Part shown: positions 2,437 to 10,070 of the stretch, in pieces
Numbering within the stretch: the stretch's first letter is position 1
How the letters are laid out: every line of letters starts with the position of its first letter
Assembly: GCA_021739695.1 (NCBI GenBank)
Contig: JAIPBM010000010.1
Coordinates: forward strand, 62,001 to 126,000
Length of the DNA stretch: 64,000 nt
Direction: 5' to 3'
From: Flavobacteriales bacterium
Lineage (GTDB): Bacteria > Bacteroidota > Bacteroidia > UBA10329
Program-made: the position numbers and the translations under genes
Notes under the pieces: generated by a model
What the model was told of the DNA's origin: nothing
Database searches by the model: none
Seen by the model: the letters and a program-made list of their open reading frames with translations, nothing else

Positions 2437-2499
2437 TATTTGCTAGACTTTGGCGAGGGTAACATTTGGTTAACTTGCGCGCCTCAAAAAAATCCAGGA

Positions 2500-3933
2500 A
2501 TGAGCATGAGCAAACCAATTGAACTGAAAAAAGTAACGGGACCTATCGGTCCGGTGATATACCTAATTTCCACAAAAGCAAATGTTGCCCAAGTTCCGGA
2601 ACTTGGCGTTTTGCAGGCCAAAGTAGAAGGGCGCATCAATGATGATGAATTAGTGTTTTTTGCTCCTGCAGCAGAAGACGGAATAGTAGTGGCGAAAGTG
2701 AAAAAGGATGCCGAGATCAGCTACAGATTGCAGAATGCACGAGTGCTGGGAGCAAAACTGACCACATTGCTTAATCGCGAGAAATCAACTTTTGCCACCA
2801 TTGTGAATCTTGGCGTGCCAATGGATGAATTACTGGCTGTTTTGGAAGGTCTCGTGCTTTCCAATTATCAGTTCCTCACTTATAAGACGGGAGATGCGAA
2901 TAAACCTCGCGCCTTGTCCACCATCAATGTGGTTTCGGATGCTTCGCAAGCAGATTTGGATGAACTGAGCAACATTTTGACAGGCGTTTTTGCTGCTCGC
3001 GATTTTGTGAACGAACCTGTTATTACCCTTACATCAACAGAATGGAGCAAGCGGATAGTTGAGTTGGGTAAAAAAACTGGCTTCAGTACCACGGTTTTTG
3101 ATAAAAAGAAGATCGAGGAGCTGAAAATGGGCGGTCTTTTAGGAGTGAACAAAGGTTCAGTGGAGCCACCAACCTTCAATGTTTTGGAGTGGAAGCCGAC
3201 AAACGCCAAGAATACTAAACCATATGTTTTGGTTGGAAAAGGAGTGGTTTACGATACTGGTGGCTACAATATTAAAGTAGCACAAATGGCAAATATGAAG
3301 TGCGATATGGGTGGTGGAGCCGCTGTTTGCGGTGCAATGGCTGCCATTGCTGCAAACAAATTACCTGTTCACGTTATCGGTCTTATTCCATCAACAGATA
3401 ACAGAATTGACGGAAAAGCGCTGGTTGCAGATGATGTCATCACCATGATGAGCGGAGCAACCGTGGAGGTTTTGAACACGGATGCTGAAGGTCGATTGAT
3501 CTTGGCTGATGCGCTTCATTATGCAAAGCAATTCGACCCTGAATTAGTGATCGATCTGGCAACATTGACTGGTGCTGCTGCACGTATCACAGATTACCAT
3601 GGAATTGCCATGTGTGCTGACAAAGCTCCGCAGAAGGAGTTGTTGAAGGAATGTGGTGAGAACGTGTATGAGCGATTGATGGAATTTCCGATGTGGAAGG
3701 AATTTCATGATGTGATCAAATCGGAAGTGGCAGATATCAAGAATATTGGCGGTGCGGCAGGTGGAAACATCACAGCAGCCACGTTCCTCAATCATTTCAC
3801 CGATTATCCTTGGATCCATTTGGATATTGCTGGGCCAGCTTTCATGGAAAGCTCCAAAGACTATCGCTTGAAAGGCGGAACAGGTTCAGGAGTTAGATTG
3901 CTTTACGATTTTGTGAAAAAATCTGTTGCCTGA
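2500..3933 (+). CDS. pepA: Leucyl aminopeptidase, M17 family
   Basis: Cytosolic metallo-aminopeptidase that releases N-terminal residues from peptides. The open frame extends to 2440, but the ATG at 2500 behind CCAGGA is the better start, giving 477 residues. The C-terminal catalytic domain shows the M17 signature NTDAEGRL (about residue 335), the metal-binding GKGVVYDTGGYNIK segment and a CDMGGG segment that supplies further ligands. The N-terminal half is the usual, less conserved macro-like domain. It is followed after 6 bp by a deformylase-like gene, phosphoglycerate mutase, a HAD protein and methionine aminopeptidase, all on the same strand, so it may start a protein-maturation transcription unit. 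Confidence 0.93.
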   Translation: MSMSKPIELKKVTGPIGPVIYLISTKANVAQVPELGVLQAKVEGRINDDELVFFAPAAEDGIVVAKVKKDAEISYRLQNARVLGAKLTTLLNREKSTFATIVNLGVPMDELLAVLEGLVLSNYQFLTYKTGDANKPRALSTINVVSDASQADLDELSNILTGVFAARDFVNEPVITLTSTEWSKRIVELGKKTGFSTTVFDKKKIEELKMGGLLGVNKGSVEPPTFNVLEWKPTNAKNTKPYVLVGKGVVYDTGGYNIKVAQMANMKCDMGGGAAVCGAMAAIAANKLPVHVIGLIPSTDNRIDGKALVADDVITMMSGATVEVLNTDAEGRLILADALHYAKQFDPELVIDLATLTGAAARITDYHGIAMCADKAPQKELLKECGENVYERLMEFPMWKEFHDVIKSEVADIKNIGGAAGGNITAATFLNHFTDYPWIHLDIAGPAFMESSKDYRLKGGTGSGVRLLYDFVKKSVA

Positions 3934-3939
3934 TCTGTT

Positions 3940-4473
3940 TTGATAAAAGCATTCGGAAACAACATCTATAAAACGAAGTCGCAGGTAATTGGAAATGCCA
4001 CTGGCACTTCGGAATTGGCTGCGCAACTTCGCGAAGTACAGAAACGTGTCAAGCATCCGTTGGTCTCTGCCAAGCATCTCGGATTGGATCTTCAGGCCTT
4101 TATTGTCGACCTGAATTTTCTTTCTCAAGATGCAGTCGATTTCCGTCAGCTTATCATCAATCCAGAGTTGATCTTAACCAAAGCTCCGCTTACGGCTCAG
4201 TTGGAAGATGATCTATCTATACCACGCTTGGCCGTTTCCATCGATAGGCCAAAGGAGATTGAGATCAGTTTTTTTGATGAGAATTTAACGCCCCGAACGG
4301 CTGTGTTTTCCGATCTTGCAGCCCGTTGGATCTTGCATGGAATGGATCAGTTGAATGGAATTTCCATCTTAGATAAATTGAATAAGCATAGGCAACGGTC
4401 GGTTCAAACGCATTTGAAGCGAATTGCAGACCGAAAAATTGAAACGAATTACGAATTAGAATACGATAGCTGA
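3940..4473 (+). CDS. Peptide-deformylase-like protein lacking the catalytic motifs
   Basis: 177 residues, starting at TTG 3940 (no ATG is available in the N-terminal half). The sequence follows the order of peptide deformylase: [10 protein letters not shown] where GVGLAAPQIG is expected, FIVDL, IINPEL, then EDDLSIP where EGCLSIP is expected, a [12 protein letters not shown] strand, and [15 protein letters not shown] where HExDHLNGxLFxDxL is expected. The metal-binding Cys, the second His and the catalytic Glu are therefore missing, so deformylase activity is unlikely (inference). It sits between leucyl aminopeptidase and phosphoglycerate mutase, with methionine aminopeptidase three genes downstream. 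It may bind nascent chains or regulate the active enzyme; neither is shown. Confidence 0.75.
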
Positions 4474-4474
4474 A

Positions 4475-5092
4475 ATGACACAACCGTACGCAAAATTGGT
4501 CATCGTCCGTCACGGACAATCGGAATGGAATGCTCAGAACCGTTTCACTGGCTGGGTAAATGTTGATCTTGCTCCAAAAGGCATCGCGGAAGCGAAAGAA
4601 GCAGGCGAGAAATTGAAGGGTTACAAATTCGATATTGGCTTTACTTCCGCACTGATGCGTGCTCAAAAAACGCTGCAGAACATTCTTCAGGTCACTGGTC
4701 AAACCGATTTGGAAGTGGTGGAGAACGAAGCGCTGAACGAACGCATGTATGGCGACCTGCAAGGAATGAATAAGGACGAGGCGCGTGCTGAGTTTGGTGA
4801 AGAGCAGGTTCATATTTGGCGAAGAAGTTTCGATACGCCACCTCCCGGAGGAGAGAGCTTGAAAGGAACAGCCGACCGTGTGTTGCCATACTTCAAAGCA
4901 GTAATTGAACCTGAATTGAAAGCAGGCAAGACCATCATTATTGCAGCCCACGGAAACAGTCTTCGCGCTCTGATCATGTACTTGGAAAAGATGACTCCGG
5001 ACGAGATTCTGAAAACAGAGGTTCCAACAGGCAAGCCGAAACTGTATGAGTTCGATGCTGACCTGAATGTGCTTCGCACAGATTATATCTAA
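4475..5092 (+). CDS. gpmA: 2,3-bisphosphoglycerate-dependent phosphoglycerate mutase
   Basis: Interconverts 3- and 2-phosphoglycerate in glycolysis and gluconeogenesis in the cytoplasm. 205 residues, the short form of the histidine-phosphatase-superfamily enzyme. The RHGQSEWN motif at residue 12 carries the phosphorylated histidine, [11 protein letters not shown] follows as in known dPGMs, [12 protein letters not shown] holds the catalytic Glu region, and [10 protein letters not shown] near 160 holds the second histidine. It starts one base after the stop of the deformylase-like gene, consistent with translational coupling. Confidence 0.95.
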
Positions 5093-5101
5093 CTTCGCAG
5101 C

Positions 5102-5536
5102 ATGGATATGATGATGGGCAAATCGCTCGTGATAGCGGTTGATTTTGATGGTACAGTAGTGGAGCACAAATACCCAGCAATTGGCAAGGAAATGCCATTC
5201 GCTTTTGCTACGCTCAAAGAGTTACAAAAACGTGGTCATCGCTTGATCATGTGGACGTATCGCCATGGGAAAACCTTGGATGAAGCTGTGGAATACTGTC
5301 GGCAGAATGGTGTCGAATTTTACGCCATCAACAAGAGTTTTCCAGAGGAGAAATTCGACCCGAATGAAGCTAGCCGTAAGTTAGATTGCGACATGTTCAT
5401 TGATGATCGGAATGTTGGTGGTTTTTTAGGTTGGGGCGAGATTTTCAACCTGATACATCCGGAAGCTTCAGGACAGCAAATGCAACGACAACCAGAGGTC
5501 AAGAAAGGATTGTTCGGTAAATTATTCAGAGGATAA
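5102..5536 (+). CDS. BT0820-type HAD-superfamily phosphatase
   Basis: 144 residues. The N-terminal motif AVDFDGTVVE (about residues 12-21) gives the nucleophile and acid/base aspartates of HAD hydrolases, IMWTYR (about 50) supplies the second motif and MFIDDRNVGG (about 99) the acidic motif. The length and the FIDDRNVGGF signature match the small BT0820-like subfamily common in Bacteroidota, whose physiological substrate is unclear. It starts 9 bp after gpmA, and its stop overlaps the map start by one base, so it is very likely co-transcribed with both. Confidence 0.88.
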   Translation: MDMMMGKSLVIAVDFDGTVVEHKYPAIGKEMPFAFATLKELQKRGHRLIMWTYRHGKTLDEAVEYCRQNGVEFYAINKSFPEEKFDPNEASRKLDCDMFIDDRNVGGFLGWGEIFNLIHPEASGQQMQRQPEVKKGLFGKLFRG

Positions 5537-6363
5537 TGGCGGTTTTAAAGACAAGAGAGCAGATTGAATTGATGCGCGAAAGCGCCTTGGTGGTTTCGCG
5601 CACCCTAGGAGAAGTAGCTAAGTTGATCAAACCAGGCGTTACACCGCTTGAACTCGACAAAGTAGCCGAAGCATACATTCGCAGCCAAGGTGCCGTGCCC
5701 GGATTTCTGGGCTATGGCGGATTTCCAAACTCGCTTTGCACATCGGTAAATGAGCAAGTGGTTCACGGAATTCCTTCTAACACGCCACTCAAGGAAGGCG
5801 ATATCATTTCGGTCGATTGTGGAGCCATTCTGAATGGTTATTACGGAGATCACGCATACACCTTTGCCGTTGGCGAGATTTCTGAAGAAACGAAGCAATT
5901 GCTAAGAGTTACGGAGGAAAGTCTCTATTTAGGAATTGAACAGATCCGTTCAGGAAATCGGATTGGAGATGTAGGCTACGCAGTTCAGCATCATGCCGAA
6001 AAGCACGGTTATGGTGTGGTAAAGGAATTGGTCGGTCACGGACTTGGAACGCACATGCACGAAGATCCTGAACTTCCTAATTATGGAAGAAGAGGTCATG
6101 GGAAGAAGATGAAAGACGGTTTGGTGTTGGCCATTGAGCCGATGATCAATCTCGGAACTGCTGATGTGGCCCAACTGGAAGACGGCTGGACGATTGTAAC
6201 CTTGGACGGCAAACCATCTGCTCACTTTGAGCACGATGTGGCCATTGTTGGAGGAAAGCCTGAAATTCTATCAACCTTCAAATACGTTTACGAAGCATTA
6301 GGGATTGAAGATCCATTCAAAGACAAGCAATCGTTCTATCAGCTTCAACAGGCTAATAGCTAA
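5536..6363 (+). CDS. map: Methionine aminopeptidase, type I
   Basis: Removes the initiator methionine from nascent proteins. 275 residues with the creatinase-like fold and all five metal ligands visible: SVDCGA and GDHAYTF (two Asp), GHGLGTHMHEDPELPNYG (His), AIEPMINLG (Glu) and HFEHDVAI (Glu). The ATG at 5536 overlaps the last base of the HAD gene. No N-terminal zinc-finger extension is present. With leucyl aminopeptidase and a deformylase-like gene upstream, this stretch is enriched in N-terminal protein processing functions. Confidence 0.96.
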   Translation: MAVLKTREQIELMRESALVVSRTLGEVAKLIKPGVTPLELDKVAEAYIRSQGAVPGFLGYGGFPNSLCTSVNEQVVHGIPSNTPLKEGDIISVDCGAILNGYYGDHAYTFAVGEISEETKQLLRVTEESLYLGIEQIRSGNRIGDVGYAVQHHAEKHGYGVVKELVGHGLGTHMHEDPELPNYGRRGHGKKMKDGLVLAIEPMINLGTADVAQLEDGWTIVTLDGKPSAHFEHDVAIVGGKPEILSTFKYVYEALGIEDPFKDKQSFYQLQQANS

Positions 6364-8640: not shown

Positions 8641-9708
8641 ATGGCGTATATAGAACTCTACGGAGATAAACTTCGCCACAACTACCAATTTCTAGACACA
8701 CTTTTTAACCACCACGGCAAAGAATGGGCGGTGGTGACCAAGATGCTTTGCGGCAATCGCAAATACATCGAAGAGATCATTAAACTGGGCACCAAGGAGA
8801 TCTGTGATTCGCGCATCAGCAACCTGAAAGTGGTGAAGAGCATTGACCCTACGGTGCAGACGGTTTACATCAAGCCGCCCGCCAAGCGTAGCATCAGCAA
8901 AATTGTGAAGTATGCCGATGTGAGTTTCAACACGGAATTTGCCACCATCAAGATGCTTTCTGATGAAGCGGTGAATCAGAATAAGACGCACAAGATCATC
9001 ATCATGATAGAGATGGGCGATCTGCGCGAAGGCATTATGGGCGATCATCTGATGGATTTCTACGACAGCATTTTCAAACTGCCTAACATCAAGATATCAG
9101 GCATTGGCACCAACCTCAACTGCCTCAATGGCGTGCTGCCATCGCAAGACAAACTCATACAGCTAGGCTTGTACGAGCAGCTGATCGAGGCCAAATTCAA
9201 CATCAAGATACCATGGGTGACGGGCGGCACATCGGTCATCATTCCCATGCTGTTCAAGCATCAGGTGCCTGATGTGGTCAATCATTTCAGAGTGGGAGAG
9301 ACGCTCTTTTTCGGTGCTGATCTACTCAGCGAGGGCACCATCGAAGGAATGGAGGCAGATGTGATCAAGCTTTTTGCCGAGGTCATCGAGATCACCGAAA
9401 AGCCGAAAGTACCCATCGGTTCCTTGGCCCAGAATCCTTCGGGAGAGGTATTTACCGTAGATGAAAAGGACCTTGGAAAGAACATGCACCGCGCCATTCT
9501 CGACATCGGTCTGCTGGATGTTTCCACCGATTTTCTACTTCCGGATGATGATAGGATAAGCGTGGTAGGTGCCAGTTCAGACATGTTGGTGATCGACATA
9601 GGAGAAAGCGGCAACTACACTGTAGGCGACCTTGTTTCCTTCAAACTCAAATACATGGGGGCGCTTGCCCTGCTGAACTCAGATTATATTGAGAAACGGT
9701 TGGTGTAG
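8641..9708 (+). CDS. Alanine/ornithine racemase-family PLP enzyme
   Basis: 355 residues in the fold-type III (alanine racemase-like) PLP family. The N-terminal barrel carries the PLP lysine in WAVVTKMLCGN (about residue 33); IEMGDLREGI and VTGGTSVIIP are further barrel motifs, and the C-terminal beta domain starts near residue 240. It resembles the group annotated as alanine/ornithine racemase, which interconverts L- and D-amino acids; the exact substrate is uncertain. It is coupled to the GNAT gene. The last 55 bp of this gene are present again as decayed copies about 0.5 and 1.3 kb downstream. Confidence 0.85.
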   Translation: MAYIELYGDKLRHNYQFLDTLFNHHGKEWAVVTKMLCGNRKYIEEIIKLGTKEICDSRISNLKVVKSIDPTVQTVYIKPPAKRSISKIVKYADVSFNTEFATIKMLSDEAVNQNKTHKIIIMIEMGDLREGIMGDHLMDFYDSIFKLPNIKISGIGTNLNCLNGVLPSQDKLIQLGLYEQLIEAKFNIKIPWVTGGTSVIIPMLFKHQVPDVVNHFRVGETLFFGADLLSEGTIEGMEADVIKLFAEVIEITEKPKVPIGSLAQNPSGEVFTVDEKDLGKNMHRAILDIGLLDVSTDFLLPDDDRISVVGASSDMLVIDIGESGNYTVGDLVSFKLKYMGALALLNSDYIEKRLV

Positions 9709-9776: not shown

Positions 9777-10070
9777 GACTGTAGTTAAACTTCAATTGAC
9801 TGTATCCAACCTATCTTTAACTGTAATTGACTTAGCTCTAACTGTAGATAACTTAGCTTTAACCGTAGCTAACTTAGCTCTAACCGTATATAACTTAGCT
9901 TTAACCGTAGCTAACTTAGCTTTAACCGTAGCTAACTTAGCTTTAACCGTAGCTAACTTAGCTTTAACCGTAGTTAAGTTAGCTTTAACCGTAGTTAAGT
10001 TAGCCTAAACTGAAGATAAGTTAGCATAAACTGAAGTTAAGTTAGCATAAACTGAAGTTGGGTTAGGTAC
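9777..10070. repeat. 21-bp tandem repeat array (about 14 units)
   Basis: The stretch 9709-10226 has no convincing gene. It holds about 14 head-to-tail 21-bp units of the form AACCGTAGCTAACTTAGCTTT; three consecutive units (9903-9965) are identical and divergence rises toward both ends. Each central unit contains the palindrome GCTAA-C-TTAGC. Because 21 is a multiple of three, one frame stays open and would encode a repeated LALTVAN heptapeptide from a GTG at 9769, but the array continues past its stop with the same period, which argues for a DNA repeat and not a protein. Confidence 0.9.

Follow-up and report, generated by a model that had tools for sequence, protein, structure and literature searches.

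A degenerate, very probably inactive peptide deformylase paralogue maintained between pepA and gpmA in a genus of Flavobacteriales

What is a peptide deformylase gene kept for when the residues of its active site have been replaced? This question is raised by a gene in the 64,000-nucleotide stretch of Flavobacteriales DNA analysed here (the window), which a preliminary description had presented as a degenerate deformylase, possibly a pseudoenzyme that binds formylated N-termini or regulates the real enzyme. The gene, here called def', lies at 3940..4473 on the + strand (as do all window features below) and encodes 177 amino acids from a TTG startcodon, as delimited by its open reading frame, the PF01327 match and its orthologues. 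PF01327 (Pfam) matches residues 3-151 of the 177 with 78 bits (E 7.6e-22, cut-off 22.8), far above chance, and six NCBIfam deformylase models also match, each under its curated cut-off (TIGR00079 with 56.4 vs 103.95 bits). A single-sequence search of the PDB with an E limit of 1 gave 58 matches, with 4dr8 at the top (E 5.6e-14); 56 of these are deformylases by name, and the other two (3uwa and 5mtc) are deformylases by their structure titles. The profile of the seven-member degenerate set matched a second profile, made from eight other deformylases (including the S. meliloti pSymB protein, which is itself substituted), with an E of 1.7e-22 and a probability of 99.5. Membership of the deformylase sequence family is thus confirmed, and with it the degenerate-deformylase identity first proposed for this gene.

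An AlphaFold2 model built on a 45-row alignment (pLDDT 87.7, pTM 0.84) superposes on E. coli Def (1xen) with a Z of 22.3 and an rmsd of 2.2 over 161 residues, so the predicted fold is the expected one. Since 43 of the 45 rows are viral deformylases, this match carries no independent weight: the model indicates a sequence compatible with the fold, and is no independent proof that def' adopts it. A control prediction on two rows was uninformative (pLDDT 35).

Alignment with the E. coli Def of MG1655, the numbering of which is used for the substitutions, places the replacements G43H, I44P, G45L, Q50H, G89D, C90D, E133G and H136Q in def', with H132, E88 and R102 retained. The former motif I (residues 39-48, 4054..4083) has Pro40 at Ile44 and Leu41 at Gly45, followed by Lys45-His46 at Thr49-Gln50, which is invariant in the seven sequences; the former motif II (residues 89-95, 4204..4224) reads EDDLSIP, with Asp91 at the metal ligand Cys90; and in the former motif III (residues 129-140, 4324..4359) the HExxH of deformylases reads HGMDQ, with His133 kept, Gly134 at Glu133 and Gln137 at His136. 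The metal ligands Cys90, His132 and His136 are therefore represented by Asp91, His133 and Gln137, leaving a single ligand, while the general base Glu133 and the residues Gln50, Gly43 and Gly45 have given way to Gly134, His46, His39 and Leu41. As judged from these residues, the metal site appears to be gone.

The same six positions (Gly43, Gly45, Gln50, Cys90, Glu133 and His136) are replaced in all seven def' orthologues, and several of the replacements are shared: Pro for Ile44, His for Gln50 and Asp for Cys90 are common to 7/7, Glu133 has become Gly or Ala, and His136 Gln or Leu. The metal ligand His132 is present in six orthologues, including that of the window, and is Gln in the seventh (G008). 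All seven complete canonical Defs of the genus keep Gly43, Gly45, Gln50, Cys90, His132, Glu133 and His136. The earlier claim that the metal Cys, the HExxH motif and the glutamine loop are replaced thus stands for Cys90, Gln50, Glu133 and His136, but one metal His (H132) stays in 6/7. With this pattern of losses def' is very probably devoid of deformylase activity. The idea that it binds formylated N-termini is also disfavoured, by the loss of the metal site and by the state of the motif I strand lining the peptide site, where neither glycine is left and an invariant Pro stands at Ile44 in 7/7; in E. coli Def, Ile44 and Gly45 hydrogen-bond the substrate backbone.

An active deformylase had been expected elsewhere, and an intact gene for one was found. 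PF01327 matches at two places in the genome of the window (4.24 Mb, 98.5% complete): the intact canonical def (C10:26536-27006) and def' (C10:65946-66392), 39 kb apart on the same contig. A ruvX gene (named by eye from its sequence) adjoins the canonical def, and a search of 37 def loci, several of them incomplete, showed a ruvX-like frame at 26. Every one of the nine genomes in the genus has a full fmt gene scoring above cut-off, and in 7/9 one type I map gene was found. The canonical def was not found in G001, a genome that is 70% complete, and in G002 a frame change in the assembly interrupts it (L049, G002:C113:23638-24071), so that in these two genomes the degenerate copy is the only deformylase gene seen whole; both cases are probably assembly faults.

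How widely is def' distributed? As the preliminary description had suggested checking, we looked for it in relatives, and it is present in seven of the nine genomes of the genus, which are also the nine genomes of the order sample. The assemblies of the remaining two do not contain the locus. A true loss was considered and rejected for both: in G006 the contig (4680 bases) ends inside pepA and no gpmA was found, and in G003 neither pepA nor gpmA was seen. A search of 395 genomes of the class (including the nine), which scored at most eight candidates per genome, separated the seven carriers, at 273 bits or more, from the other 388 genomes, at 103 bits or less. Twenty-eight of the latter passed E 1e-25 with 91-103 bits; five of these places (in G020, G034, G038, G046 and G078) coincide with canonical def places, and the three that were read, out of the 28 (L021, L027 and L029, all among these five), are intact. 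In a phylum sample of 395 genomes, overlapping that of the class, the window's own genome alone passes E 1e-29, and when genome contigs were scanned with the window protein, a single locus was confirmed, in G004. Among 72,556 plasmid records there were seven matches to def', none over 26.1% identity, and among 50,697 phage records 48 matches, all below 60%. Other second deformylases of the class (six genes in five genomes) keep the two His of motif III and its Glu in 6/6, and the Cys in 5/6. The second deformylase of G028 (L042:862-1503) has Asp for Cys90 (EGDLSIP) and retains HEIDH.

The def' genes form one clade in a tree of 66 rows, with a support of 100/100; its branch measures 2.6 changes per column, and the clade lies inside the Bacteroidota Defs with supports of 94/91 and 94/82; seven Defs of the class, the broken def of G002 and 72 of the 80 viral deformylases were omitted from the tree. 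Given the length of that branch and these supports, the placement among Bacteroidota Defs is likely, not proven. For the five genomes in both sets the branching of def' agrees with that of the canonical Defs, and a duplication before the genus radiated, followed by vertical descent, fits best. A phage origin was also considered, as two viral contigs carrying degenerate deformylases (L065 and L066) came up in a search with the profile of the degenerate set. It was rejected: the tree sets these two with phage deformylases and def' with the Bacteroidota Defs, and from these separate positions the losses look separate. When viral sequences were also scanned with the G005 protein, one intact deformylase (L162) was recovered.

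With regard to selection, dN/dS (Nei-Gojobori) was 0.08-0.24 in 10/10 pairs formed among the window gene and the four orthologues nearest to it, and 0.014-0.052 in the 7 of 21 canonical Def pairs with a defined dS; dS was undefined in 11/21 degenerate and 14/21 canonical pairs and, where defined, was above 1 in 9/10 degenerate and 7/7 canonical pairs, which is near saturation and makes the ratios rough. The gene is under purifying selection and not decaying. The label of pseudoenzyme, in the sense of a degenerate deformylase kept by selection beside an intact def elsewhere in the genome, is therefore apt.

The gene order pepA-def'-gpmA is found in all seven carriers. In the window, pepA (2440..3933; M17 leucyl aminopeptidase, PF00883, E 3.7e-106) stops 6 bases ahead of def', and gpmA (4475..5092; 2,3-bisphosphoglycerate-dependent phosphoglycerate mutase, TIGR01258, 256 bits) starts 1 base past it; these are followed by a BT0820-family HAD phosphatase gene (5102..5536; NF046079, 196 bits) and by map (5536..6363; type I methionyl aminopeptidase, TIGR00500, 300 bits). 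The start of def' overlaps the pepA stop by 4 bases in G004 and as TAATG in G008, and the gap is longer in G005 and G007. The startcodon is TTG in G000, G001, G002 and G004 and ATG in G005 and G008, and is ambiguous in G007. The HAD gene and map follow the operon in five genomes; in G005 the pair sits on a different contig, preceded by what by eye is a NUDIX-like gene, and the map gene of G007, also on a different contig, has no HAD gene before it. What had been described as a protein-maturation neighbourhood with pepA and map thus holds for pepA, constant in 7/7, but only in part for map, which adjoins in 5/7; the stable unit is pepA-def'-gpmA, the last of these a glycolytic gene. Promoter- or terminator-like sequences showed no excess beyond about 1.2 standard deviations over shuffles. 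Further along the window, at 9808-10066 and after the open reading frame at 8641-9708, there is a tandem array of about 11 copies of a 21-base unit with 88% matches.

If catalysis is lost, which part of the protein is conserved? There are 34 columns invariant in all seven def' sequences, nine of which (D145, L147, N148, R151, R153, S154, H158, L159 and R161) lie in the basic C-terminal helix region, residues 145-161 (4372..4422), so that 9/17 residues are invariant here and 25 in the other 160 (Fisher p 0.001, a value that applies to this stretch alone, which was chosen after looking). Among all 17-residue stretches of the protein it ranks first for density, and with correction for the choice this is borderline (p 0.054, as 5.4% of 20,000 draws of 34 random invariant residues gave at least nine in some 17-residue stretch). 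The model predicts a helix at 149-164. In E. coli, Def is described as binding the ribosome through its C-terminal helix, with contacts at L149, K150, R153, K157, K160 and R163 (PMC12690207, accessible text). The alignment is gapless across the helix and sets R151, S154, H158 and R161 of def' against K150, R153, K157 and K160; these four of the six contact positions are invariant in def' (hypergeometric p 0.013 over the whole protein, 0.092 within helix 149-164), and three of the four residues are basic. The residues themselves are changed (K150R, R153S, K157H and K160R), and L149 and R163 are not kept, the corresponding positions holding H or Y (150) and D, E or S (164). The net charge of the 20-residue helix segment is +4 to +6 in def' and +4 to +5 in the canonical Defs of the genus.

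The reading that we prefer, although tentatively, is that def', a Def paralogue without catalysis, persists because it docks or regulates, with the uL22 site as the most likely place. It would descend vertically from an early duplicate of this lineage's Def, and would have lost catalysis and the formyl-peptide pocket while being maintained for binding, with the basic C-terminal helix as its best conserved surface. Through this helix it would dock at uL22 by the tunnel exit, where E. coli Def sits, a step that the helix makes conceivable and to which we give somewhat less than an even chance. Once docked, it might limit or time the access of Def and methionyl aminopeptidase to nascent chains without any chemistry of its own, and its level would be tied to that of PepA through the common operon. 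The sites of Def and MetAP at uL22 are reported to overlap (PMC9099147, accessible text). Competition of def' with Def and MetAP is nonetheless doubtful at present, and so is the fuller proposal that, from the tunnel exit, it gates how far or in what order nascent proteins are processed at the N-terminus. The earlier suggestion that def' regulates the real enzyme might hold by way of such competition on the ribosome. Several points count against docking: the helix density is borderline after correction and the coincidence with the contacts within the helix is weak, the contact residues are substituted rather than identical, and map is not a conserved neighbour in G005 and G007.

The conserved basic helix may also bind another partner altogether; the C-terminal helix of B. 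subtilis DefA is required for inhibition of the tyrosine kinase PtkA (PMC11194573, accessible text). One candidate is PepA, of which def' could be a partner or regulatory subunit, the helix binding PepA and not the ribosome. This is rather unlikely, yet it would account for a pepA gene directly upstream in 7/7, with overlapping genes in two genomes and a gap of only 6 bases in the window; set against it, gpmA is an equally constant neighbour that needs no such partner, and the gap is longer in G005 and G007. By analogy with DefA, which inhibits PtkA, def' might regulate some other protein through its helix. The published case gives a precedent for a deformylase C-terminal helix acting on a non-ribosomal partner, but DefA is itself described as an active deformylase (accessible text of PMC12690207), and no kinase was seen with Pfam and NCBIfam models among the genes from pepA to map, and we regard this regulator role as improbable.

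The remaining alternatives concern the former active site. Asp91, His46 and His133, at positions that we take to line the old metal site in the deformylase fold, might hold a metal in a remodelled site with a new hydrolytic or binding function. Invariance of H46 and D91 in 7/7, unexpected under drift, and presence of H133 in 6/7 speak for this. Against it, G008 has Gln in place of H133, and none of the seven retains the general base Glu133 (Gly or Ala instead); a remodelled site is a fairly improbable outcome. It would be a case of metal ligands at other positions, which the preliminary description had named as a refutation of its idea, so that this refutation is opposed but not fully dismissed. 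That def' should still be an active deformylase with an unusual site is hardly credible: some motif-substituted deformylases are described as active, for example T. brucei type 3 (PMC12690207, accessible text), but here the substitutions remove two of the three metal ligands along with the general base, the Gln and both Gly, in a genome that also has an intact def. It is also very unlikely that def' is a functionless gene in decay. Losses in each of the three catalytic motifs and an evolution faster than that of canonical Def, as the dN/dS ranges above indicate, would fit such a relic, but the frame is open in 7/7, the replacements recur in all of them, dN/dS is far below 1 and the place in the operon is fixed; on the dN/dS values and the conservation, decay was rejected.

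Inactive accessory deformylases have already been listed, and the set described here is unusually clear: in all seven orthologues catalysis and the peptide pocket look lost and the helix that in E. coli Def faces the ribosome is densest in invariant residues, and the genome of the window carries an intact def; a non-catalytic role could be tested directly with one small protein. Genomes with "two deformylases", the targets of actinonin-type drugs, may hold one enzyme only. Should the docking reading be true, a dead member of the deformylase family would be a translation-coupled regulator.

Compared with canonical Def (PF01327; L001 in the same genome), def' shares homology over the whole domain, the Asn-Pro pair, E88, R102 and the basic C-terminal helix, and 5/7 orthologues have a tail of the Bacteroidota Def type. 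Unlike canonical Def, it has lost Cys90, Glu133, His136, Gln50, Gly43 and Gly45 and has an invariant Pro, His and Asp, and it does not have the insert found ahead of the Asn-Pro pair in the canonical Defs of the genus.

Losses of catalytic residues are also seen in phages, where four deformylases (L065:1267-1794, L066:1429-1902, L070:764-1342 and L072:980-1471, the last two from Rhizobium phage RHph_I1_18 and Ochrobactrum phage vB_OspM_OC) have motifs such as EVNVSYP with HAIDQ, or ESSMSFP with QQGMDQ. In each case the preceding gene encodes a gp46-like recombination nuclease; for L070 and L072 its annotation is endonuclease or exonuclease subunit 2, and for L065 and L066 it was recognised by eye. 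Because L066 is sister (100/99) to an intact phage deformylase, the losses in phages look recurrent; the accessible text of PMC5591237 ascribes strict motif conservation to viral deformylases. The S. meliloti pSymB protein (UIJ96367.1, L077:977-1492), annotated as a deformylase, resembles def' in having lost Cys90 (to Ser) and in two identical replacements, His for Gln50 and Gln for His136, but it keeps the HE of HExxH and both motif I glycines and lies elsewhere in the tree.

Accessory deformylases with motif substitutions are described as common in the accessible text of PMC12690207, which names inactive ones in S. aureus and S. pneumoniae, where the inactive second copy lies beside an active Def (see also PMC5591237, accessible text). 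Under the definition of type 3 in the former, i.e. substitutions in motifs I and II, def' would be counted with these deformylases (S. aureus, S. pneumoniae, archaea and trypanosomes), which have substituted motifs and are described as having weak or no activity (accessible text of PMC12690207 and PMC5591237). It differs from them in that its losses span all three motifs and in its fixed pepA-gpmA operon, and it groups with Bacteroidota Defs, in a tree without any named type 3 sequence. B. subtilis DefA offers the likeness of a minor deformylase that acts as a binding regulator, through a C-terminal helix needed to inhibit PtkA (PMC11194573, accessible text), whereas DefA is active (PMC12690207, accessible text) and def' is without a known kinase link. 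A search of the open-licence PMC literature found no deformylase pseudoenzyme or degenerate Bacteroidetes paralogue, which does not imply absence from print. What is new in def', when set beside these systems, is the combination of loss in three motifs, replacement residues in common, a retained helix of the ribosome-binding type and a fixed operon.
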